Virus record (IMG/VR): IMGVR_UViG_3300035670_001082
Location: 1 to 26,814 of that record
Direction: 5' to 3' (one strand)
Length of the DNA: 26,814 bases
Origin: a virus
Shown here piece by piece: positions 3,001 through 26,781 of the stretch (position 1 is its first letter; each line of letters starts with the position of its first letter). Below the pieces are notes generated by a model. It saw only the letters and a list, made by a program, of their open reading frames with translations. It was not told the DNA's origin and did not search any database. Position numbers and translations under genes: made by a program.

Positions 3001-3309
3001 GAAGAATTGGCTGAATTTGCCCGCGTGGCACAGATTGCGCTGCCCGTCGCGCGGGAGTTCCTCGGCATATCCGGCAGCTTTGCGGAATTGGTTGCCGATG
3101 TTTCCCGCACGCTCCGCACCGCCGCGCCCGGCAGTGACCCGGCCAATCTTGGGGCGCTGCTGGAAGCCCAGGTGGCGGGTGCGGATCGGCTGGAATTGGC
3201 CGTAATCGGCACCGGCCAGGCGCAAACGCAAGTCTTGAATAGCCTGCTGACGGAACTGCGGCGATTGACAGCGCAGAATGAAGCGCTGTTGGCGCGCGCC
3301 ACTGTGTAA
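1..3309 (+). CDS. Tail tape measure protein (5'-partial)
   Basis: The frame is open from base 1, so the gene starts before the window; a TTG at 40 is only an internal codon. About 1,102 residues are visible. Tape measure proteins set tail length and occupy the tail lumen. The first ~165 residues resemble the conserved 'tape measure domain', with phrases such as LRSIMENMP and FPALLRAG followed by MPLTMARSF. Residues ~210-470 are charged and helical, consistent with coiled coil. Residues ~520-690 are extremely Gly/Ala-rich, with glycine-zipper hydrophobic stretches (encoded about 1860-2080) typical of the membrane-active part of tape measures. The C-terminal third is helical again. The next gene follows after 11 bases. 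Basis: visible composition and domain resemblance; family assignment from known tape measures. Confidence 0.9.
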   Translation, partial: TGSIGAAEKAYQSLFELSQKTGVAVSESAGAFGRFAIAAREIGATNNQVIELVRTVQQAGIIAGTTTQETASATMQLGQALASGRLQGDELRSIMENMPTLGAALARELGVGVGELRKMGAEGKLSADVVFPALLRAGQSINVEFEKMPLTMARSFSILGEAMTRFAADLDRALGLSQAIARAAQNAAAAVNAGRGALGLGTPLEMATSGYETSRERVTNIDRQIANAEAALGGAMPGGTRGIMRRNLEALRQERELAIKELERFIAQRNRLEREAQEAGEAEQYTAGQRAIQSQRTRDQARLEDLYKALDKDRTIRAEHAERVRQIDELAARGTLNQEEATRLRTIAERERDEALARLVERTDKARDATERLTDADRDNQRLVQQGVSLAENAATENERYEAQVRALTAALNAGQISQERYNRAVSQLSPAMREARQAEERALQERERLNKQITDDIVRYSADSFATLWSNTGRGFAGLMESMLQMVRRTFARIAAEAVIRPIVTPIVSSFVTPIMGALGFGGGMAPGGASAGGGGIGPGQILQAGQAISGMAGGGGGLMSMLGLGGAGAGIASFLGQPVFGAAAQASATNSALAAMPGGMMGPATPAAVGMPGMTLGGALGAGAAGFGAGMLTGSITGSIRGTADPTTGSAIGAGLGTAAGFMLIPVLGPAGPIIGGAIGGAIGGLFGPTTRGMASRAGGDVFLGVNDAGLLNITNAAGKRWDQAGATAAVQQQLDAINQAAAARGLTFAAPGQHAVGFGQASASPRELQQAAFIAQLRGGSANQMTAFATLAGRQSSTLEQAFQAADFVTQIYDPLTRAAEQTSAFTAAMEALTKAYDDAITKARDLGLSEADLAAQRADRIARLEADRARDLDIIDRTIASRRMIAAGDTRGAGLTQFDLRAEAELRAFGDQLFALGFERTGDEYRRRVVELEQVIADERLAVMRQFDNQMRGITQGLLESLTLGDLGGLPLEARYGAALASLSAAQQPLLDGATPEELAEFARVAQIALPVAREFLGISGSFAELVADVSRTLRTAAPGSDPANLGALLEAQVAGADRLELAVIGTGQAQTQVLNSLLTELRRLTAQNEALLARATV

Positions 3310-16762: not shown

Positions 16763-16929
16763 CACACAAACCCCAACATCGCCAGCCAAACCAGCACAAC
16801 CCATGCGATACCGTCAAACAGCCATTCAAAGGCGGCATTGACCGGGCCGGGGCCAATCGCCAGCGCCAGCGCCAGAATCAAGCACAGCGGCGCCAGGATC
16901 ACAAACCATATTGCGCGTTCTGGGGTCAT
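16762..16929 (-). CDS. Small two-span membrane protein (55 aa)
   Basis: ATG 16929 to TGA 16762. Upstream AGGTGA gives a good ribosome site and the start lies in an ATGA overlap with the pentapeptide gene. The product starts MTPERAIWFVILAPLCLILA; two hydrophobic segments (about residues 6-27 and 36-55) are separated by GPGPVNAAFEWLFDG. It ends AMLGFV. It is easily missed because the exonuclease frame runs through the region. Function unknown. Confidence 0.65.
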   Translation of the reverse strand: MTPERAIWFVILAPLCLILALALAIGPGPVNAAFEWLFDGIAWVVLVWLAMLGFV

Positions 16930-17498
16930 GATTTCACCTGCCTTTCGATTGCTTTCTCAAACATATTGAGGATGTCTTGCGTTTCATCGCCAAGCGGCGT
17001 TCCGGCGCGGGTGGCGGTCCAATGTTGACGCGCTTCGGCTATGTCAAAAAACCGGCAACCGGCTTTGATGTAAAAGTTTTCCTGGCAATGCCACAAGAAA
17101 AACTCATAGCCATCTGACCGCGTGGCGCGGCGCAAAATGCCGATAGCGGTTTTGTTGTTGTTGATTTTGGCGCCGACGAGGCTGGCGCGGTAAAGGCTGG
17201 CGCCGCGAAGGCTGGCGCCGTCAAGGTTGGCGCCGACAAGGCTGGCGCCGACGAGGCTGGCGCGGTAAAGGCTGGCGCCGCGAAGGCTGGCGCCGTCAAG
17301 GTTGGCGCCGACAAGGCTGGCGCCGACGAGGCTGGCGCGGTAAAGGTTGGCGCCGCGAAGGCTGGCGCCGACAAGGCTGGCGCCGTCAAGGCTGGCGCCG
17401 TCAAGGCTGGCGCCGTCAAGGTTGGCGAGCTTTCCGCCCTTGCCTTCAATCCATAATTTGTGATCCGCCAGAACAGCGGCAATTTCCTCTCGGGTCAT
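16926..17498 (-). CDS. Pentapeptide-repeat protein
   Basis: 190 residues, ATG 17498 in an ATGA overlap. Residues ~25-112 are tandem A(N/S)LxG pentapeptides (ANLDGASLDGASLVGASLRG and so on), which fold as a right-handed beta-helix. A non-repeat C-terminal domain follows (TAIGILRRATRSDGYEFFLW ... GCRFFDIAEARQHW ... GDETQDILNMFEKAIE). A similar tail is seen in other phage pentapeptide proteins. The repeat DNA contains a perfect 75-base tandem duplication (separate entry). Known pentapeptide proteins include DNA-mimic gyrase binders, but nothing here proves such a role. Confidence 0.87.
   Translation of the reverse strand: MTREEIAAVLADHKLWIEGKGGKLANLDGASLDGASLDGASLVGASLRGANLYRASLVGASLVGANLDGASLRGASLYRASLVGASLVGANLDGASLRGASLYRASLVGAKINNNKTAIGILRRATRSDGYEFFLWHCQENFYIKAGCRFFDIAEARQHWTATRAGTPLGDETQDILNMFEKAIERQVKS
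17171..17370. repeat. 75-bp tandem repeat in the pentapeptide gene
   Basis: Bases 17171-17245 and 17246-17320 are identical by direct reading. A third partial copy from 17321 matches for about 50 bases with one substitution (C to T at ~17347), then diverges. The unit encodes 25 residues, five pentapeptides, so copy-number change keeps the frame. The fine unit is 15 bases (GGCTGGCGCCGNCNA-like). Confidence 0.92.
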
Positions 17499-18199: not shown

Positions 18200-18981
18200 A
18201 TAATTACGATTGGACGCGCGAAAGCATCGCCACCCTGCGCCAGCTTTGGGATCAGGGCCTTACTGCAACCGAAATTGGTTGCAGGATGGGCCTTAATAAA
18301 AACCAGGTCGTTGGCAAAGCGCATCGTGAAGGCTTCCCCAGGCGCCAGCCTTGCAACGCGCATCATGCCAGCGTCAAACCGACTACGGATCAGCAGCGCC
18401 AGATTGTGCGCGACTTGTGGCACACGGCGTCCTATGAGCGCATCGCGCAATGCACCGGCTTGGGCCAGCGGCGCGTCAAAGACTTGGCGCGCGAATTGGG
18501 CCTGCCAGAGCGTGATCCATCCTTAGCGCACATGCTTTCCGCAAGCGCGCAAAGAAAAAGCCGTGCCGTGGTGGCGCGGCCTGCCGCCCGTAATAATCGA
18601 GAACTCCCCCGTTCCGATACGCGGGCGGCTTTTCCATCGCGGCCAGGTGCCGCTTCTGTCTCCGGCGTCTCCTCCCCCGCCGTTGAGCGCCAGGCTTCTT
18701 CCCGGCCTGAGCGAAACTTGCCCGGCGCTGGCGCTGATGAAGCGCCGCGCCGGGTCTTTTCGGATACGCAATGCCAATTCATATATGGCGATGATCGGCG
18801 CGCATATCGCTTTTGCGATGCGCCATGCGTAGCGCGCGATAATGGCGCGCCTTCGCCATATTGCGCGGAACATTATGCGGTATGCCTGATTTCCCTGCCC
18901 AAAGCCGAGGCGGCGCGGAAGGCGCAACGTGCGGCGACTTGGGGACGGTTGCGCTTGCAAGTGGCGAGCGCTTGGCGGTAA
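18196..18981 (+). CDS. GcrA-like transcription regulator with an extra HTH
   Basis: 261 residues from GTG 18196, chosen because it forms the GTGA overlap with the Cro-like stop and GGAG (18183-18186) is well spaced; ATG 18181 is an alternative. Residues ~4-50 (WTRESIATLRQLWDQG, then LTATEIGCRMGLNKNQVVGK) match the N-terminal DNA-binding domain of GcrA. The C-terminus has the GcrA-type Cys-rich end: C193, FCDAP with C207 and C211, then SPYCAEH with C223 and H226. In between lies a second HTH-like stretch (residues ~70-105, LWHTASYERIAQCTGLGQRR) and a disordered linker. Host GcrA binds RNA polymerase sigma70 and stimulates methylated (GANTC) promoters. The target of this phage version is unknown. 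Confidence 0.82.
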   Translation: MNNYDWTRESIATLRQLWDQGLTATEIGCRMGLNKNQVVGKAHREGFPRRQPCNAHHASVKPTTDQQRQIVRDLWHTASYERIAQCTGLGQRRVKDLARELGLPERDPSLAHMLSASAQRKSRAVVARPAARNNRELPRSDTRAAFPSRPGAASVSGVSSPAVERQASSRPERNLPGAGADEAPRRVFSDTQCQFIYGDDRRAYRFCDAPCVARDNGAPSPYCAEHYAVCLISLPKAEAARKAQRAATWGRLRLQVASAWR

Positions 18982-19018
18982 CCAATTTTCACAACAACCA
19001 GCAACCAAAGAGGAAAAG

Positions 19019-21553
19019 ATGAACCACATAAACAAAGCCGGTCTTTTGGATTCCGGCGCCTATCTCGAATTTCTGCAAAGCAAGTTTCGCTTTGGTGCGG
19101 AACATGGCTTTTCAGTGCCACGCAATGCGATAACGCCGCTTGCCAAGCCTCACCAAGCGGACCTTATTCAATGGGCTTGCCGAAAGGGACGCGCGGCGAT
19201 TTTCGCCAGCTTCGGCCTTGGCAAATCTATCATGCAACTTGAAATCGCGCGGCTGATGTTGGCAGAAGTCGGCGGGCGTGGCCTGATCATCATGCCGCTA
19301 GATGTGCGCCATGAGTTTATGGCGGATGCTGCCATGCTTGGCATTCAGGTGAAGTTTATTCGCAGCACTGAGGAAATCGGCGGCGCTGGCATTTACCTAA
19401 CAAATTATGAGAGCGTGCGCGAAGGCAAGATTGACCTTTCGCTTTTCACGGTGGCGAGCCTGGATGAGGCGAGCGTGTTGCGGTCCTACGGATCGAAAAC
19501 CTATCAGGTTTTTATTGATCTGTTTCAGATTGTGCCATATCGCTTTGTCGCCACGGCTACGCCTTCGCCAAACCAATACAAGGAGCTGATTCATTACGCG
19601 GGCTTCCTTGGCATTGCCGATACGGGCCAAGCCCTGACGCGGTTTTTCCAGCGCGACAGTGAACAGGCGAACAATCTGACGCTCTATTTGCACATGGAAA
19701 AAGAGTTTTTTCTCTGGCTTCATTCATGGGCCGCATTTGTCCAAAAGCCGTCTGACCTGGGCTATTCTGATGAGGGCTATTCCTTGCCCGAATTGGTAGT
19801 GCGCTGGCACGAGGTGCCGGTGGATAGCCTGCAAGGCAAGGTGGAGCGCGACGGGCAGGGTGTATTGATCACCGATGGCGCAGTTGGGCTGGCGCGTGCG
19901 GCAGAGGAAAAGCGCAACACATTGGAGCGTCGCATTGCAAAAATGTGCGAGATTGTGAACGCCTCGCCGGATGAGCATTTTATTTTGTGGCATGATCTTG
20001 AAAGCGAACGCCATGCTATTGGCGCGGCATTGCCGGAAGCGCGGGCCGTTTATGGGTCACAAGATGACGAAGATCGCGCCCGAACCATTATGGATTTCAA
20101 AGAGGGCAAGCTTAGGTTGCTGGCGACTAAAAAGGAAATCAGCGGATCAGGCGGCAATTTCCAGCGCTTTTGCCATAGGGCAATTTTTGTCGGGATTGAT
20201 CACAAATTCAATGACTTTGTGCAAGCTATCCATCGCATTCACCGCTTTTTGCAACCGCACCCTTGCGAGATTGACATTATCTTTGCGGAGACTGAAAGGC
20301 CTGTCCGGGAAAGCCTAGAGCGCAAATGGGGCGAGCATCGGGAATTGACGGAGCGCATGTCTGACTTGATCCGGGAGCATGGCCTTGCGACGGCAGGAGT
20401 TGAAGCCGAACTCGCCCGCACCATCGGAGTTGAGCGCAAGGAAGCGCGCGGCGCCGGGTGGACCGCCGTGCATAATGATACGGTGCTTGAGGCTGACCGG
20501 ATGGAAAGTGATAGCGTGGACCTGATCGTTACTAGCGTTCCTTTCGGCAATCATTATGAGTATTCCGAAAGCTATGAAGACTTTGGCCACAATTCCGATA
20601 ATGGCCGTTTCTTTCAGCAAATGGAGTTTCTAACGCCTAACATGCTTCGCATTCTGAGGCCGGGGCGCCTAGCCTGCATCCATGTCAAAGATCGGATCAG
20701 ATATGGCAATGTGACGGGCCTTGGAATGCCTTCCGTCGAGCCGTTTCATGTCGATTGCATTCAGCATTACCGGCGTCACGGCTTCGTTTATATGGGCATG
20801 ATAACGGTGGTGACGGACGTTGTGCGGGAAAACAACCAGACTTACCGACTGGGCTGGACGGAGCAATGTAAAGACGGCAGTAAGATGGGCGTAGGTTGCC
20901 CTGAGTATGTGTTGCTTTTCCGCAAGCTTCCAAGCGATACCAGCACGGCCTATGCCGATGTGCCGGTGGTGAAGGATAAGGCGCAATACACGCGCGGGCG
21001 CTGGCAAGTTGACGCTCACGCATTCTGGCGCAGCAGCGGCAATCGTTTTCTGACCGCCGATGAACTGCTTGGCTTTGGGCCTGATGTATTGGCAAAGCAT
21101 TTCACATTGATGACGCGGGAACGGATTTATGATCACGGCGCGCATGTTGCGGTGGCAGAGGATATGGACCGGCGCGGCGTATTGCCGGCGACCTTCATGG
21201 CGGTTGCGCCTGGCTCGCATGATCCTACGGTTTGGGATGATGTTATCAGAATGCGGACCCTCAACGGCGCTCAAGCGCAGCGCAATCTGCAACAGCATGT
21301 TTGCCCGTTGCAGTTTGACATTGTGGAAAGGCTCATCAATCGCTACACCAATCCGGGAGAATTGGTTTATGATCCTTTTCATGGTCTCGGCACGGTATCC
21401 TATTGCGCTTTGAAGCTGGGCAGGAAAGGCGCCGGGGTGGAACTCAATCATGAGTATTGGACAGATAGCCTGCGCCATTTACGGGAAGCCGAGCGTGAAG
21501 CTTCTATGCCTTCGCTTTTCGATGTTGCAGAAATCGCGGCGGTCGCATCATGA
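19019..21553 (+). CDS. SF2 helicase-DNA methyltransferase fusion
   Basis: 844 residues. ATG 19019 follows AGAGGAAAAG; the frame is open to 18929, but that part overlaps the GcrA-like gene. N-terminal SF2-type ATPase: FGLGKS at 65-70, DEAS in place of DEAH/DExD (D149, E150), TATPSPN near 178, and QAIHRIHR at 402-409. C-terminal methyltransferase: motif IV reads TSVPF (505-509), a variant of TSPPY/DPPY, and the AdoMet-binding motif I comes last as DPFHGLGT from D785, the permuted order of beta-class N4/N6 enzymes. PEYVLLFRK and ENNQTYRLGWTEQCKDGSKM are characteristic of this phage family. Likely phage DNA modification with helicase assistance, maybe anti-restriction like P1 DarB (inference). 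Confidence 0.87.
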   Translation: MNHINKAGLLDSGAYLEFLQSKFRFGAEHGFSVPRNAITPLAKPHQADLIQWACRKGRAAIFASFGLGKSIMQLEIARLMLAEVGGRGLIIMPLDVRHEFMADAAMLGIQVKFIRSTEEIGGAGIYLTNYESVREGKIDLSLFTVASLDEASVLRSYGSKTYQVFIDLFQIVPYRFVATATPSPNQYKELIHYAGFLGIADTGQALTRFFQRDSEQANNLTLYLHMEKEFFLWLHSWAAFVQKPSDLGYSDEGYSLPELVVRWHEVPVDSLQGKVERDGQGVLITDGAVGLARAAEEKRNTLERRIAKMCEIVNASPDEHFILWHDLESERHAIGAALPEARAVYGSQDDEDRARTIMDFKEGKLRLLATKKEISGSGGNFQRFCHRAIFVGIDHKFNDFVQAIHRIHRFLQPHPCEIDIIFAETERPVRESLERKWGEHRELTERMSDLIREHGLATAGVEAELARTIGVERKEARGAGWTAVHNDTVLEADRMESDSVDLIVTSVPFGNHYEYSESYEDFGHNSDNGRFFQQMEFLTPNMLRILRPGRLACIHVKDRIRYGNVTGLGMPSVEPFHVDCIQHYRRHGFVYMGMITVVTDVVRENNQTYRLGWTEQCKDGSKMGVGCPEYVLLFRKLPSDTSTAYADVPVVKDKAQYTRGRWQVDAHAFWRSSGNRFLTADELLGFGPDVLAKHFTLMTRERIYDHGAHVAVAEDMDRRGVLPATFMAVAPGSHDPTVWDDVIRMRTLNGAQAQRNLQQHVCPLQFDIVERLINRYTNPGELVYDPFHGLGTVSYCALKLGRKGAGVELNHEYWTDSLRHLREAEREASMPSLFDVAEIAAVAS

Positions 21554-22531: not shown

Positions 22532-22690
22532 ATGAACGATGAACCCCTCCCTTCCACCCTAGAGCAGCACCTCGCCTTTTACGCGCGGTTTCTGCATAAT
22601 CTGCAAACCCGCGTTCCGGACCCGGTGGAAGACGCGGAACGGGAGGCGCATTTTGAGACATGGAAGCGGAAAGGCGCCAAACGGAAATGA
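22532..22690 (+). CDS. Small acidic protein (52 aa)
   Basis: ATG 22532 (MNDEPLPSTLEQHLAFYARF) or ATG 22520 (four residues longer). AAGGAC at 22514-22519 is too close to 22520 and rather far from 22532, so the start is uncertain. It ends WKRKGAKRK, with an ATGA overlap into the prim-pol gene. Helical, no recognised family. Confidence 0.6.
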   Translation: MNDEPLPSTLEQHLAFYARFLHNLQTRVPDPVEDAEREAHFETWKRKGAKRK

Positions 22691-24702
22691 GCCTGACCCA
22701 AAGCGCCATCTGGCTTGCCCAGGAAATGCGCCTGCCGGTATTCGCCTGCGGGCCGGACAAGCGCCCGGTAACGCAACACGGCTTCCATGACGCCACGCAT
22801 GACACGGCAGAGATTGAGCGCCAATTCGCCATGCCTGGCGCGGCCATGATCGGCGTTCCCACAGGCGACACGTCCGGCTTTTTCGCGCTTGACCTAGACG
22901 TGAAAAACGGCGGCGGCGGATTGGAATGGCTGGCAGCAAACCAGCATCGAATACCGGACACGCGCCGGCACCGCACTCGATCCGGCGGGGTTCACCTGCT
23001 ATTCGCCATGCCGGAAGGCCGCACGATCCGCAATAGCGCCGGGCGCATCGCGCTTGGCGTGGACGTGCGCGGCAACGGCGGCTACATCATCGCGCCACCA
23101 AGCCCAGGCTATCTGGTGGATCAGGCCATCGCGCCCGCGCCCGCGCCGGCATGGTTGCTGGACCTCATAGACCCGCCCAAAGCCCCAGAAGCGCCGCGCC
23201 CGGCACCTGCGCCGCGCCAATCCGGCGATGGCACAAGATACGGCCTAAGCGCCTTGGACAATGAGTGCCAGGCCATCCTGAGCGCGCCCGACGGGGCAAA
23301 GCATGACACCCTAAACCGCGCGGCGTTCTCGATCGGCGGCCTAGTCGCGGCAGGCGAATTGATTGAGGGACCAGCCTTCGCCGCCTTAACCTCTGCCTTG
23401 GCAGGCATCCGGCACCGCTGCGATGATTTCCGGTCAGCCGAGAAAACCCTACGCGACGCATTCCGGGCCGGCATGGCAAAGCCGCGTGAAAACCCGCCGC
23501 GCCTGATCCGCCGAATTGTCGAGGAATACACCCCCACCCGCCCGGAGCCGCCGCCGCTTGATCAAGCGCCCGACCATTGGAGCGCGGAGCCGGAGCCGGA
23601 CATAGGCCTGCCGGTGGAAAAAATGGAAGGCACCAGCGGCGCCGGTAAATCCACCGGCCTGCCGCTGATCTATTTCCAGGACGTCAAGCCTGCCCTTAAG
23701 GCTGAAGACTTTGTCGAAGGTCTGATCATTAAGGCGGCCATGTCAGTGATTTATGGCCCGTCCAACTGCGGCAAGACTTTCTTTATGACGGACCTGGCCC
23801 TTCACGTCGCGCTTGGCTTGGAATGGCGCGGGCGTGAGGTAGAGCGCATGGGCGTGATTTACTGCGCTATGGAAGGCGCGCATGGGATACAAAACCGGGT
23901 AGCAGCTTTTGCGATGGCGTGCGGGCTAACTGGGCAGGAAATCCCGTTCGCTATCATCCCGGTGGCATTGAATTTGCTAGACCCCAAGGCTGACACGTCC
24001 CGGCTGATCGACGCAATCATGGCGGCAGCCGAACGCATGGCAATTCCGGTAGGGCTTGTGGTGATGGATACGCTGAGCCGTGCGATGGCGGGGGGCAACG
24101 AAAACAGCGCAGAGGATATGGGCGCACTGGTAGTCAATTCTGACCGGATCAGGCAGGCCACCGGCGCGCATGTAGCCTGGATACACCATAGCGGCAAGGA
24201 CCAAGCCCAGGGCGCAAGAGGCCATAGCCTGCTGCGCGCGGCAACCGATACCGAGATTGAGATTAGCCGAGCGGATAGCGAAAGCCCGTCCATCGCCAAG
24301 GTCACCAAACAGCGCGAATTGGAAATCGACGGCGTGTTTGGCTTTACGCTCAAGCGCGTGGAATTGGGCCTAAACCATCGCGGGAAGCCGGTCACGTCAT
24401 GCGTGGTCGAGGCTACCGATGACCGGCCCGCCAAGCCTCGTATGAGCCTCACCAATGGCGAGGCCATGGCCCTGCGTATCCTGCATGACGTGATGGCGAC
24501 GCAACCCTGCCAGGTGCCATTTCAGGCCGCAGAAGCGGGGGTGAAATCGGCAACTAGTAAGCACGCATGGCGCGAGACATTTTTTGCTCGCTCAACTGCT
24601 GAGACGCACGAGGCAAAGAAAAAAGCATTCAGCCGGGCCGCCGATGGGCTGGCACAAAAGGGCCAAATAGGGGTTCACCATGACACGGTTTGGGCGGTCT
24701 GA
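22687..24702 (+). CDS. Primase-polymerase / RecA-fold helicase replication protein
   Basis: 671 residues from ATG 22687 (ATGA overlap). N-terminal prim-pol (AEP-like) domain: FALDLDVKN with D69 and D71, TRSGGVHLLFA with H103, and GVDVRGNGGYIIAPPS. A Pro-rich linker follows. The C-terminal RepA/DnaB-type RecA-fold ATPase has Walker A GPSNCGKT (357-364), Walker B VVMDTLSRA with D461, and WIHHSGKD near 499-505 followed by ARGHSLLRAATD. This organisation makes primers and unwinds DNA at a phage origin. A second P-loop lookalike (GTSGAGKST) occurs at 315-323 in the linker. The GGGACA array begins about 50 bases after its stop. Confidence 0.88.
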   Translation: MSLTQSAIWLAQEMRLPVFACGPDKRPVTQHGFHDATHDTAEIERQFAMPGAAMIGVPTGDTSGFFALDLDVKNGGGGLEWLAANQHRIPDTRRHRTRSGGVHLLFAMPEGRTIRNSAGRIALGVDVRGNGGYIIAPPSPGYLVDQAIAPAPAPAWLLDLIDPPKAPEAPRPAPAPRQSGDGTRYGLSALDNECQAILSAPDGAKHDTLNRAAFSIGGLVAAGELIEGPAFAALTSALAGIRHRCDDFRSAEKTLRDAFRAGMAKPRENPPRLIRRIVEEYTPTRPEPPPLDQAPDHWSAEPEPDIGLPVEKMEGTSGAGKSTGLPLIYFQDVKPALKAEDFVEGLIIKAAMSVIYGPSNCGKTFFMTDLALHVALGLEWRGREVERMGVIYCAMEGAHGIQNRVAAFAMACGLTGQEIPFAIIPVALNLLDPKADTSRLIDAIMAAAERMAIPVGLVVMDTLSRAMAGGNENSAEDMGALVVNSDRIRQATGAHVAWIHHSGKDQAQGARGHSLLRAATDTEIEISRADSESPSIAKVTKQRELEIDGVFGFTLKRVELGLNHRGKPVTSCVVEATDDRPAKPRMSLTNGEAMALRILHDVMATQPCQVPFQAAEAGVKSATSKHAWRETFFARSTAETHEAKKKAFSRAADGLAQKGQIGVHHDTVWAV

Positions 24703-25141
24703 AATGGTAATCGCGCGCAACCAACTATCACTTTTTACCCCTGAAACTAGCCGGGACATACCGGGACAAAACGGGACAAAACGGGACATTTTAGGCGGGG
24801 GCGAGGGACACATAACGGGACATTCTATCCCCCCCCCCCTAAAGGGGGGGGGATTTTGTCCCGGTGTCACGGGTCGGGACATGTCCCGGTCCAGTCCCGT
24901 CCCGGCTGAACGAATTACAAAGCGCAACGAAAGAGAAGAAGGCAATTTTGACCCCGCCCGGAACTTCCCCACCAAGGCCAGCCTGGATGCCGCCTGGGCG
25001 GAATACAATGGGCGATGGGAAGCCTGGGAAGCGGCAGGCAAAATCGGAGAGGAACCCCACCTTCCAGCGGGGATGCTTTCGGCAATGGCCGATCGACTAA
25101 TCCCCCGCCGTAACCCGCACCAGGGCAAGCGGTGGCGCTGA
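24680..25141 (+). CDS. Hypothetical protein spanning the GGGACA array (153 aa)
   Basis: ATG 24680 follows AGGGGTTC and overlaps the prim-pol end by 23 bases; ATG 24704, two bases after that stop, is an alternative start. Residues ~25-75 are encoded by the repeat region and look unstructured (DIPGQNGTKRDILGGG, IPPPLKGGG). The C-terminal half (ASLDAAWAEYNGRWEAWEAA ... LPAGMLSAMADRLI) is a convincing helical domain. The homopolymer tracts at 24829-24852 lie inside the reading frame, so slippage would truncate or swap the C-terminus. Downstream coupling is TGATG. Confidence 0.6.
   Translation: MTRFGRSEMVIARNQLSLFTPETSRDIPGQNGTKRDILGGGEGHITGHSIPPPLKGGGFCPGVTGRDMSRSSPVPAERITKRNEREEGNFDPARNFPTKASLDAAWAEYNGRWEAWEAAGKIGEEPHLPAGMLSAMADRLIPRRNPHQGKRWR
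24753..24903. repeat. GGGACA iteron array, candidate replication origin
   Basis: Four tandem 10-bp units, each containing GGGACA, at 24753, 24763, 24773 and 24783 (exact 10-base phasing). Further GGGACA at 24805, 24817 and 24876; TGTCCC at 24857 and 24882; GTCCC at 24894 and 24899. CGGGACATGTCCCG (24875-24888) is a perfect 14-bp palindrome. It is adjacent to the prim-pol/helicase gene. Role as origin is inferred. Confidence 0.8.
24829..24852. repeat. C11-TAAA-G9 homopolymer hairpin
   Basis: Eleven C (24829-24839), TAAA, then nine G (24844-24852). Forms a very GC-rich hairpin of at least 9 pairs, followed by ATTTTG. It lies inside the iteron array and inside an ORF. May pause polymerases, fold as structured ssDNA or slip during replication. 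Confidence 0.85.
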
Positions 25142-25335
25142 TGGACCTAACCCCGGCCCAAGTCGCGCGCGCCCATGCGGACGAGGCACTTGCCGATGAA
25201 TGCCAGCGCCGCGCCAGAGAGGCCCAGAAGGGGCTAGAGCATCCGAACCTAGACCTACCTAGCCGGGAATACCTGGAAGCCCTTGTAGCCCGTTTTACGG
25301 CCCTTGCAGGCCGGTTACGCGGCATAACCCCATGA
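25141..25335 (+). CDS. Small helical protein (64 aa)
   Basis: ATG 25141 (MDLTPAQVARAHADEALADE) in a TGATG coupling; a GTG at 25132 is less likely. Continuous helices, Ala/Arg/Glu-rich, ending RFTALAGRLRGITP. No family recognised. The next gene starts after 15 bases. Confidence 0.62.
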   Translation: MDLTPAQVARAHADEALADECQRRAREAQKGLEHPNLDLPSREYLEALVARFTALAGRLRGITP

Positions 25336-25350
25336 CAGGAGCCTTTAGCC

Positions 25351-25812
25351 ATGCCCAAGCCCAAGAAACGCCTCCAGCAAGGCGCCGAAGCGGACCTAGG
25401 GCCATCCGTCCGGGTGGCGCGCGGGGACGTCGCAGTTGGCTTCCGGGCAGACCCGGATCAACCTAGCCGCACGGTCAAAGGCGCCCGCGTCCGGGTTTGG
25501 TATCACGCCGAATGGTGCGAGGGCAGGCTCACAGACGCCGAACACGAGGCGGCGGATCGCTACAGCCTATGGAGCGAGGAAGCCGAGCTACTGCGCCATG
25601 GCAAGCCGCGCGGCGCCGGTATAGGCGGCGGCGGATATACCGGGCCAGGCGATAGACTGGTATGGCTTCTGGCGCAGCTCCGGGCAGCAGATGAGGCAAT
25701 GGCGCAATACTGCGCGGCAGTTCGGTGGGCCATCTGCTGGAACCTGACGCCTAAACACCCCGAGGCCGTGCGGACAGGATTGCGCCGCTTGGCCGAATTT
25801 TGGGGCATGTAA
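25351..25812 (+). CDS. Unknown protein at the end of the early rightward operon, possible late regulator
   Basis: 153 residues, ATG 25351 preceded by AGGAGCC. The N-terminus is basic (PKPKKRLQQGAEAD). The middle has WYHAEWCEGRLTDAEHEAAD, and the C-terminus WAICWNLTPKHPEAV then RTGLRRLAEFWGM, which could be a degenerate HTH. In lambda-like phages this position, after replication genes and before HNH/terminase, often holds an antiterminator or late activator. I do not recognise the family, so that role is only positional. Confidence 0.62.
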   Translation: MPKPKKRLQQGAEADLGPSVRVARGDVAVGFRADPDQPSRTVKGARVRVWYHAEWCEGRLTDAEHEAADRYSLWSEEAELLRHGKPRGAGIGGGGYTGPGDRLVWLLAQLRAADEAMAQYCAAVRWAICWNLTPKHPEAVRTGLRRLAEFWGM

Positions 25813-25816
25813 AAAA

Positions 25817-25863
25817 ATGCGCGCAATGCGTTTTTTATGCTTGACCGCGATGCGCGTTTTGCG
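25817..25863. promoter_or_regulatory. Two direct repeats flanking the -35, candidate operators
   Basis: ATGCGCGCAATGCG (25817-25830) and ATGCGCGTTTTGCG (25850-25863) share ATGCGCGnnnTGCG and are 33 bases apart, about three helical turns. The second copy abuts the -10 hexamer. Likely bound by a regulator, perhaps the HTH protein at 26087. Confidence 0.55.
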
Positions 25864-25869
25864 TATAAG
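25841..25869 (+). promoter_or_regulatory. Strong sigma70-type promoter
   Basis: TTGACC (25841-25846), a 17-base spacer, TATAAG (25864-25869). Expected RNA start near 25876 and a ~38-base leader to ATG 25914, with AGGAG at 25901-25905. It shares the upstream string TTTTTTATGnTTGAC with the promoter at 17961. It lies in the only gene-free gap over 100 bases in this half. Confidence 0.75.
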
Positions 25870-25913
25870 GATTGCACCGAGGCGATGGTGCCCGGTAACG
25901 AGGAGATAACCCG

Positions 25914-26090
25914 ATGACAAACGCAATTGCCGCTAAAATTATTGTAAATTCTGCCTTGGAAGAAATGGCCCGCACAAGCGGCGCCGAAATTGGCGAAATC
26001 TTAACCGTCATGCTGGCCTCCCCCGATGGCGCCGCTGCGGTTCGCTTTCGTAAGCTGGTGGCGCTTGGCACTAAGACCCTCGCGCCATGA
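25914..26090 (+). CDS. Small protein driven by its own promoter (58 aa)
   Basis: ATG 25914 to TGA 26090. AGGAG at 25901-25905 with 8-base spacing is one of the best ribosome sites in the window. The product begins MTNAIAAKIIVNSALEEMAR, is helical and ends ALGTKTLAP. It is coupled by ATGA to a Cro-like gene. No family recognised. The strong promoter and ribosome site imply high expression. Confidence 0.68.
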   Translation: MTNAIAAKIIVNSALEEMARTSGAEIGEILTVMLASPDGAAAVRFRKLVALGTKTLAP

Positions 26091-26309: not shown

Positions 26310-26340
26310 AAGCGCGATTTATTGGTTAAAGTTGTGTCCG

Positions 26341-26366
26341 GAGCCCAAAAGGCTACCGGGCTTTTT
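26341..26366 (+). terminator. Probable intrinsic terminator
   Basis: GAGCCC (26341-26346) pairs with GGGCTT (26358-26363, one G-T pair) and five T follow (26362-26366). A short stem with an 11-base loop, so modest strength. It lies between the HTH gene and the HNH gene and supports a start for HNH after this point. Confidence 0.5.
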
Positions 26367-26463
26367 AACGCCCTCGGCTTTCTCAACGCCTGACCGGGCC
26401 GGCGTATCGCTCATTCCAGCGCAACAGCGTCAACGCGGAGCCGAGGCGCAGTCATTGCCCGCG

Positions 26464-26781
26464 ATGGAATGGACCCGGATGACCTACTACCAGACAGCCG
26501 AGTGGAAGGCGCTGCGCCTCGCCACCCTGCGCCGCGATGGCTTCCGATGCGTCATACCAGGCTGCGGCGCCCGCGCCTCAGTCGTGGATCATATCAAACA
26601 GCGCGAAGCAGGCGGCGCCGATGCCCTGCCAAACCTGCGGAGCCTCTGCCAGCGTCACCACAACATGCGCCCGCGCCTGTTTCAGGGCCGTGTGGCGGGT
26701 TGCGACGTTGAAGGCTGGCCGATACCAGCCCAGCCCGCCAAACCCGCCCAGCGCCCGCGCTTTGGCCGCGCGAAGGGGTAG
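26464..26781 (+). CDS. HNH endonuclease next to putative cos
   Basis: 105 residues if started at ATG 26464 (MEWTRMTYYQTAEWKALRLA). ATG 26479 and GTG 26332 are alternatives; the latter would run through the probable terminator, and no start has a strong ribosome site. The HNH motif is complete: C29 and C34 zinc ligands (CVIPGC), VDHI with D42 and H43, N57 in LPNLRS, then CQRHHN with C62, H65 and H66. The C-terminus is basic and Pro-rich. In HK97-like phages such HNH proteins work with the terminase in cos cleavage and packaging; the location at the end of the early region fits. Confidence 0.85.
   Translation: MEWTRMTYYQTAEWKALRLATLRRDGFRCVIPGCGARASVVDHIKQREAGGADALPNLRSLCQRHHNMRPRLFQGRVAGCDVEGWPIPAQPAKPAQRPRFGRAKG

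Follow-up and report, generated by a model that had tools for sequence, protein, structure and literature searches.

The primase-helicase gene and the adjoining repeats

The window (the whole stretch of DNA analysed, a linear IMG/VR record of 26,814 bases) contains a forward-strand gene at 22660-24702 that encodes a 680-residue prim-pol/RepA-type helicase, the proposed initiator; translation might instead begin at an internal ATG (residue 10). Pfam places a Prim-Pol domain (PF09250) at residues 17-165 and a RepA-type helicase domain (PF13481, AAA_25) at residues 349-516, and the protein matches phrog_906 (DNA polymerase/primase) in PHROG. Its sole sequence relative in the PDB is RepA of RSF1010 (E 0.0049), and the helicase part has a RecA/KaiC-like fold and does not qualify as an SF3/D5-type AAA+ domain. 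AlphaFold predicts a winged helix in the last ~95 residues, and this domain (residues 597-680; 24448-24699, + strand) is the proposed iteron reader. The models have helices at 599-614, 634-644 and 650-666 and wing strands at 670-673 and 676-679, with pLDDT mostly above 90; the PDB folds that match the domain are winged helices, but the matches are weak. The third helix (24607-24657, + strand) is the putative recognition helix, an assignment that rests on the mutual-information scan and held-out prediction described below. No HUH endonuclease was found among the ten window proteins scanned with Pfam and PHROG; the other genes were not scanned, and the record is a fragment.

A cluster of repeats begins 50 bp 3' of the primase-helicase stop codon. 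Four copies of CGGGACA on the + strand (24752-24758, 24762-24768, 24772-24778 and 24782-24788) follow one another at start-to-start steps of exactly 10 bp, and a fifth (24816-24822) lies directly 5' of a hairpin at 24827-24854, whose C11 arm (24829-24839) and G9 arm (24844-24852) flank a central CTAAAG (24839-24844). Beyond the hairpin there is an inverted copy, TGTCCCG, at 24857-24863, then the palindrome CGGGACATGTCCCG (24875-24888), made of CGGGACA on the + strand (24875-24881) and TGTCCCG on the - strand (24882-24888), and finally two partial inverted GTCCC sites at 24894 and 24899 (GTCCCGTCCCG, 24894-24904, - strand). A plain GGGACA is present additionally at 24805. The direct repeats, inverted sites, palindrome and C11/G9 hairpin of the original prediction are thus all present in the window where it had placed them. 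Nine of the 13 GGGACA/TGTCCC sites of the whole window fall inside one 135 bp stretch, whereas the richest 150 bp stretch in 200 first-order Markov resamplings held three. Folded as single-stranded DNA, the repeat stretch is more stable than all 200 of 200 shuffles (z = -4.96). An AT-rich melting region, which many origins have, is absent, the centre in the window's clade being the GC-rich C11/G9 hairpin; some other clades have AT-rich palindromes.

The repeat region matches no Rfam family, and a DNA search of it against named phages gave only short matches at chance level. At positions 3001-3049 of Escherichia phage rolling (Dhillonvirus), 26 bp are 96% identical to iterons 2-4 (E 0.2, possibly chance) within an annotated repeat_region between tail genes. 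GC skew in the window tracks gene direction and does not place an origin.

Alignment with 29 close relatives shows that the five CGGGACA copies, the hairpin and the inverted copies after the hairpin are all retained at the same place. The hairpin arms co-vary, such that AT..AT in some genomes corresponds to GGA..TCC in others (compensated changes), and 1 bp shifts in spacing offset one another. The palindrome noted in the original prediction is perfect in the window, but neither it nor the GGGACA at 24805 is conserved among these relatives: the left half is not kept in all of them, only TGTCCC of the right half is kept, and the two partial sites are variable.

An open reading frame runs through the repeats and the hairpin (24704-25141, + strand; 145 aa, or 153 aa from an ATG at 24680), and its frame is intact in 24 of 25 relatives. 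The upstream ATG is ACG in two relatives and the ATG at 24704 is retained, so the product is probably 145 aa. It has no Pfam or PHROG match. The 153-aa product had been put forward as a possible partner in origin recognition, and we considered the protein as the specificity factor. This was rejected, since the 3' half of the frame exists in several interchangeable versions while the iterons remain CGGGACA, and the protein is thus not the reader of the iterons. These 3' halves (24900-25141 in the window and the equivalent region in relatives L005-L036) are unrelated in sequence and mostly share the ending GKRWR or KWR, a pattern suggestive of cassette shuffling 3' of the repeats. In L035 the hairpin's G run differs by one base, which disrupts the frame (76 aa); the difference is seen in this contig only and is likely a homopolymer error or slippage.

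Repeat clusters in distant relatives

Relatives of the primase-helicase gene were represented by 172 distinct sequences among the matches listed, with several hundred further relatives outside them, and each was scanned over the 350 bp 3' of the stop codon for significant clustering of a 6-mer. Such a cluster is present in 72% of the 172, as against 2% of control stretches within the gene and 1% of those farther downstream, and in every clade that has clusters it adjoins the helicase gene. The repeated word itself changes: about 45 iteron words occur across the relatives (for example CGTAACA, TGCAACA, CCGGACA and TGCACCA), and many distant clades carry repeats at the same place with another word. 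Because the words come from automatic counting of 6-mers, their registers and flanking bases are approximate. If the repeats marked an origin, they were expected to persist in relatives with the same replication protein; close relatives do keep them at the same position, and distant relatives keep a cluster of different sequence.

The layout recurs as well, with direct copies mostly 5' of the hairpin and inverted copies 3' of it. The exact 10 bp phasing noted in the original prediction holds in the window and is not a property of the family, spacing elsewhere being 8-12 bp. The motif CTWWAG centres an inverted repeat in 63% of iteron-bearing loci and essentially never does so in shuffles or controls. 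The automatic scan also recovers this signature in two cultured phages, Rhizobium phage 16-3 (GCGTGACA, with the core at +337) and Roseobacter phage CRP-823; in the former the gene is p101, and the intergenic stretch downstream of it lies at about 56250-56606 of DQ500118.1. The scan found no significant cluster in BFK20, Caulobacter phage GB2A or plasmid pPNAP03, and a search by genome class gave six hits in 385 genomes, too few for use.

Co-exchange of the protein tail and the iterons

Pairs of loci were compared in which the two helicase domains share 85% identity or more. Helicase identity is alike whether the iterons are the same (median 0.95) or different (0.96). The C-terminal domain, however, has a median identity of 0.91 in the 205 same-iteron pairs and of 0.49 (range 0.28-0.57) in the 22 different-iteron pairs, and wherever near-identical helicases have different iterons the C-terminal ~95 residues differ in every case. 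The 22 pairs amount to about seven independent contrasts. In the cleanest pair, L040 and L042, the helicase parts are identical and the iterons are TGCAACA and CGTAACA; DNA identity is 50-75% from about -310 to +165 around the stop codon and mostly 88-100% outside, such that in this pair the tail domain and the repeats form one exchanged cassette. Similar two-sided drops are seen in L187/L324 and L342/L360, and in other pairs the downstream DNA differs as well, which leaves a drop on one side alone. Three loci (L038, L039 and L058) are natural chimeras of another sort, combining a prim-pol N-terminus and distal downstream DNA like those of the window's clade with a different helicase, tail and iteron (ATCGGGG).

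Mutual information between tail columns and iteron bases peaks where position 4 of the iteron is paired with residues 652, 655 and 656 (z 11-13); for position 2 it peaks at residue 654. All four residues (A652, K654, K655 and A656 in the window) belong to the opening turns of the modelled recognition helix, whose second half scores lower (about -1 to 6). Since relatedness inflates these covariation z-scores, rules relating residues to bases were fixed beforehand and then tested on 51 newly fetched loci. A 'KH' helix group (with iterons such as GCACCGA and TACCGCA), whose register cannot be aligned with the others, was excluded from the rules.

Clusters are present in 44 of the 51 held-out loci (86%), compared with 4% and 4% of control stretches; no significant cluster was found in the remaining 14%, or in 28% of the original 172. 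The rules named the right iteron in 24 of 27 cases (TGCAAC 11/11, TGCACC 7/7, CGGACA 3/3, GGGACA 3/6). Since the held-out loci were drawn from the same collection and lack phylogenetic independence, comparison with nearest neighbours is the relevant control: by the same criterion the nearest helicase relative is right in 10 of 27 and the nearest tail relative in 17 of 27, and in the 17 cases where the helicase neighbour is wrong the rule is right in 14. One prediction failed, in that the CTWWAG core, expected in at least 50% of the held-out loci, occurs in 25%; several clades have hairpin centres other than CTWWAG. Strong hairpins are found in 77% of these loci and in 6% of shuffles, although this is partly due to the inverted iterons themselves. 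The earlier suggestion that the prim-pol/helicase binds the iterons is supported by both the co-exchange and the covariation in the recognition helix.

A proposed origin and its initiator

Several short direct repeats beside an initiator gene are what is expected of an iteron origin, and the window has this arrangement. We consider it very probable that the cluster is a phage replication origin and that the upstream prim-pol/helicase is its initiator, bound through the C-terminal winged helix, though there are no binding or replication data. The conserved position and layout, the turnover of the iteron word, the co-exchange of the tail and the covariation that predicts unseen iterons are observed, and this comparative evidence favours the origin proposed in the original prediction; replication itself is inferred.

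A plausible scenario is that the C-terminal winged helices of several prim-pol/helicase molecules bind the CGGGACA iterons, which are oppositely oriented on the two sides of the hairpin. This inferred binding would load two face-to-face helicase assemblies and open the DNA, although both loading and melting remain inferences. The central palindrome may then be extruded or made single-stranded, and the prim-pol domain would prime at the opened centre, from which forks would depart; extrusion and priming are likewise inferred, and that the hairpin is the priming site, in the manner of the RSF1010 ssi sites, is a guess by analogy. The initiator tail and the iterons would constitute one fast-diverging specificity cassette exchanged by recombination, and if so the origins of related phages are probably not cross-reacting, which is also an inference.

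An unlikely alternative is that the iterons are an operator, bound by the primase-helicase winged helix or by another regulator that controls the downstream genes, with replication starting elsewhere. Winged helices are common among regulators, the sites precede and enter the next reading frame, and covariation concerns recognition, not purpose. However, at least 8-10 copies in both orientations around a palindrome and beside a replicative helicase look more like an origin, no sigma-70-like promoter was found in 24400-25400 (other promoter types were not covered), and known systems of similar construction use the site as an origin (PMC7581432, PMC6092414). It is still less likely that the tail and the downstream DNA are co-exchanged through adjacency alone and that another protein reads the repeats. 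Neighbouring DNA does recombine jointly, and most of the exchanges are in few lineages (the seven or so contrasts above), but the signal is confined to specific residues in one half of one helix, and these predict held-out words better than overall helicase or tail similarity does.

We give very little weight to a third reading, in which the hairpin serves to terminate transcription and the repeats are no more than low-complexity coding sequence within the frame that crosses them. There is a terminator-like call at 24828-24852 with the tail ATTTTGTCCC, and the frame does span the repeats in nearly all relatives; yet most relatives lack a T-rich tail after the hairpin (GGGTCCAATGTCCC), a terminator would interrupt a conserved frame, and the repeats fall in several different reading frames, with other clades having them in the absence of the 145-aa frame. 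A packaging (pac/cos) or partition site can be set aside almost entirely, for although such sites also carry repeats and there is an HNH gene (26332-26781) towards the window's right end, specificity tracks the primase-helicase tail and not a packaging gene, and the cluster adjoins the helicase gene wherever it occurs.

As a proposed origin read by its neighbouring primase-helicase, the locus can be compared first with those of the PICIs and SaPIs. In PICIs the origin follows the replication gene, with a set of iterons on either side of an AT-rich centre (PMC6092414), and in SaPI Rep and SCCmec Cch2 the helicase C-terminal domain recognises the iterons (PMC7581432). The window shares the origin directly 3' of the replication gene and the two iteron sets around a centre; iterons vary between elements in the PICI/SaPI and Cch2 systems too (PMC6092414, PMC7581432), and specificity set by the C-terminal domain is met here by comparative evidence only. 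The differences are that the PICI/SaPI and Cch2 helicases are of the SF3/D5/DUF927 type, whereas the window has a RecA-type RepA helicase fused to a prim-pol, in phages, and that its clade has a GC hairpin in place of an AT-rich centre.

ORF904 of pRN1 and the BIP-1-type phages also combine prim-pol, helicase and C-terminal winged helix in a single polypeptide, and replication of pRN1 depends on a stem-loop 3' of its gene, but pRN1 is without iterons, has an SF3 helicase, and its protein shows no specific binding in assays (PMC4234260). RSF1010 has a RepA-family helicase, a primase, iterons and hairpins, such that the window's single chain is functionally like RepA, RepB' and RepC combined; it differs in that a separate RepC reads the iterons, the primase is a separate polypeptide and ssi consists of two inverted hairpins (PMC4234260). 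No separate RepC-like reader is indicated here, the reader being, by co-exchange, the tail of the helicase protein. Synthesis by the NrS-1 phage prim-pol starts at a specific template sequence, but there the prim-pol part recognises single strands and no iteron-reading tail is described (PMC8718748). Geminivirus Rep offers an analogy of logic only: virus-specific iterons lie near a conserved stem-loop and iteron-related domain residues covary with them, but it is an unrelated rolling-circle endonuclease of ssDNA plant viruses (PMC10653810). Origins of the lambda type have iterons inside the initiator gene, whereas those of the window are 3' of the initiator and in a different reading frame. 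The winged helix of phage P4 alpha binds short origin repeats, which differ from those in the window. Alpha is likewise a primase-helicase with a C-terminal winged helix, but has a TOPRIM primase and an SF3 helicase (PMC4234260).

Systems of this kind, in which the tail of a primase-helicase recognises the iterons of an origin, are already known. What appears to be new, as judged from open-access literature only, is the family of the helicase, the hairpin as centre, the extent of the turnover and the existence of readable residue-base rules; an earlier description is not excluded. A broader proposal, which we favour with considerably less assurance than the origin itself, is that prim-pol/RepA phages have a large family of non-cross-reacting origins, in which a winged helix fused to the helicase recognises an iteron of 6-7 bp according to a few residue-base rules that can be decoded. 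Tail and origin would be swapped together as one cassette, possibly as a way out of competition for origins when related phages infect the same cell. Sequence alone seldom locates a phage origin; here, searching just 3' of the prim-pol/RepA helicase gene yields a candidate in most relatives, with an iteron that is often predictable from four residues. The dozens of initiator-origin pairs would provide a natural mutational scan of winged-helix DNA recognition and candidates for orthogonal replicons, and the exchange would mark a place where recombination gives phages that are otherwise nearly identical a different replication specificity. The cultured Rhizobium phage 16-3 and Roseobacter phage CRP-823 render the idea testable.

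Among the various other features of the window, we note a 190-aa reading frame (16926-17498, - strand) with long pentapeptide-like repeats (ANLDGASLDGASL...) beside phage exonuclease and SSB genes, and a single 874-aa gene (18929-21553, + strand) in which a DNA helicase is fused to an N6/N4 DNA methyltransferase. To the right of the repeat cluster, the gap before a small reading frame (25914-26090) contains GCGCGCAATGCG/ATGCGCG repeats and a TTGACC..TATAAG-like stretch (25810-25915), an arrangement resembling a promoter with its operator.
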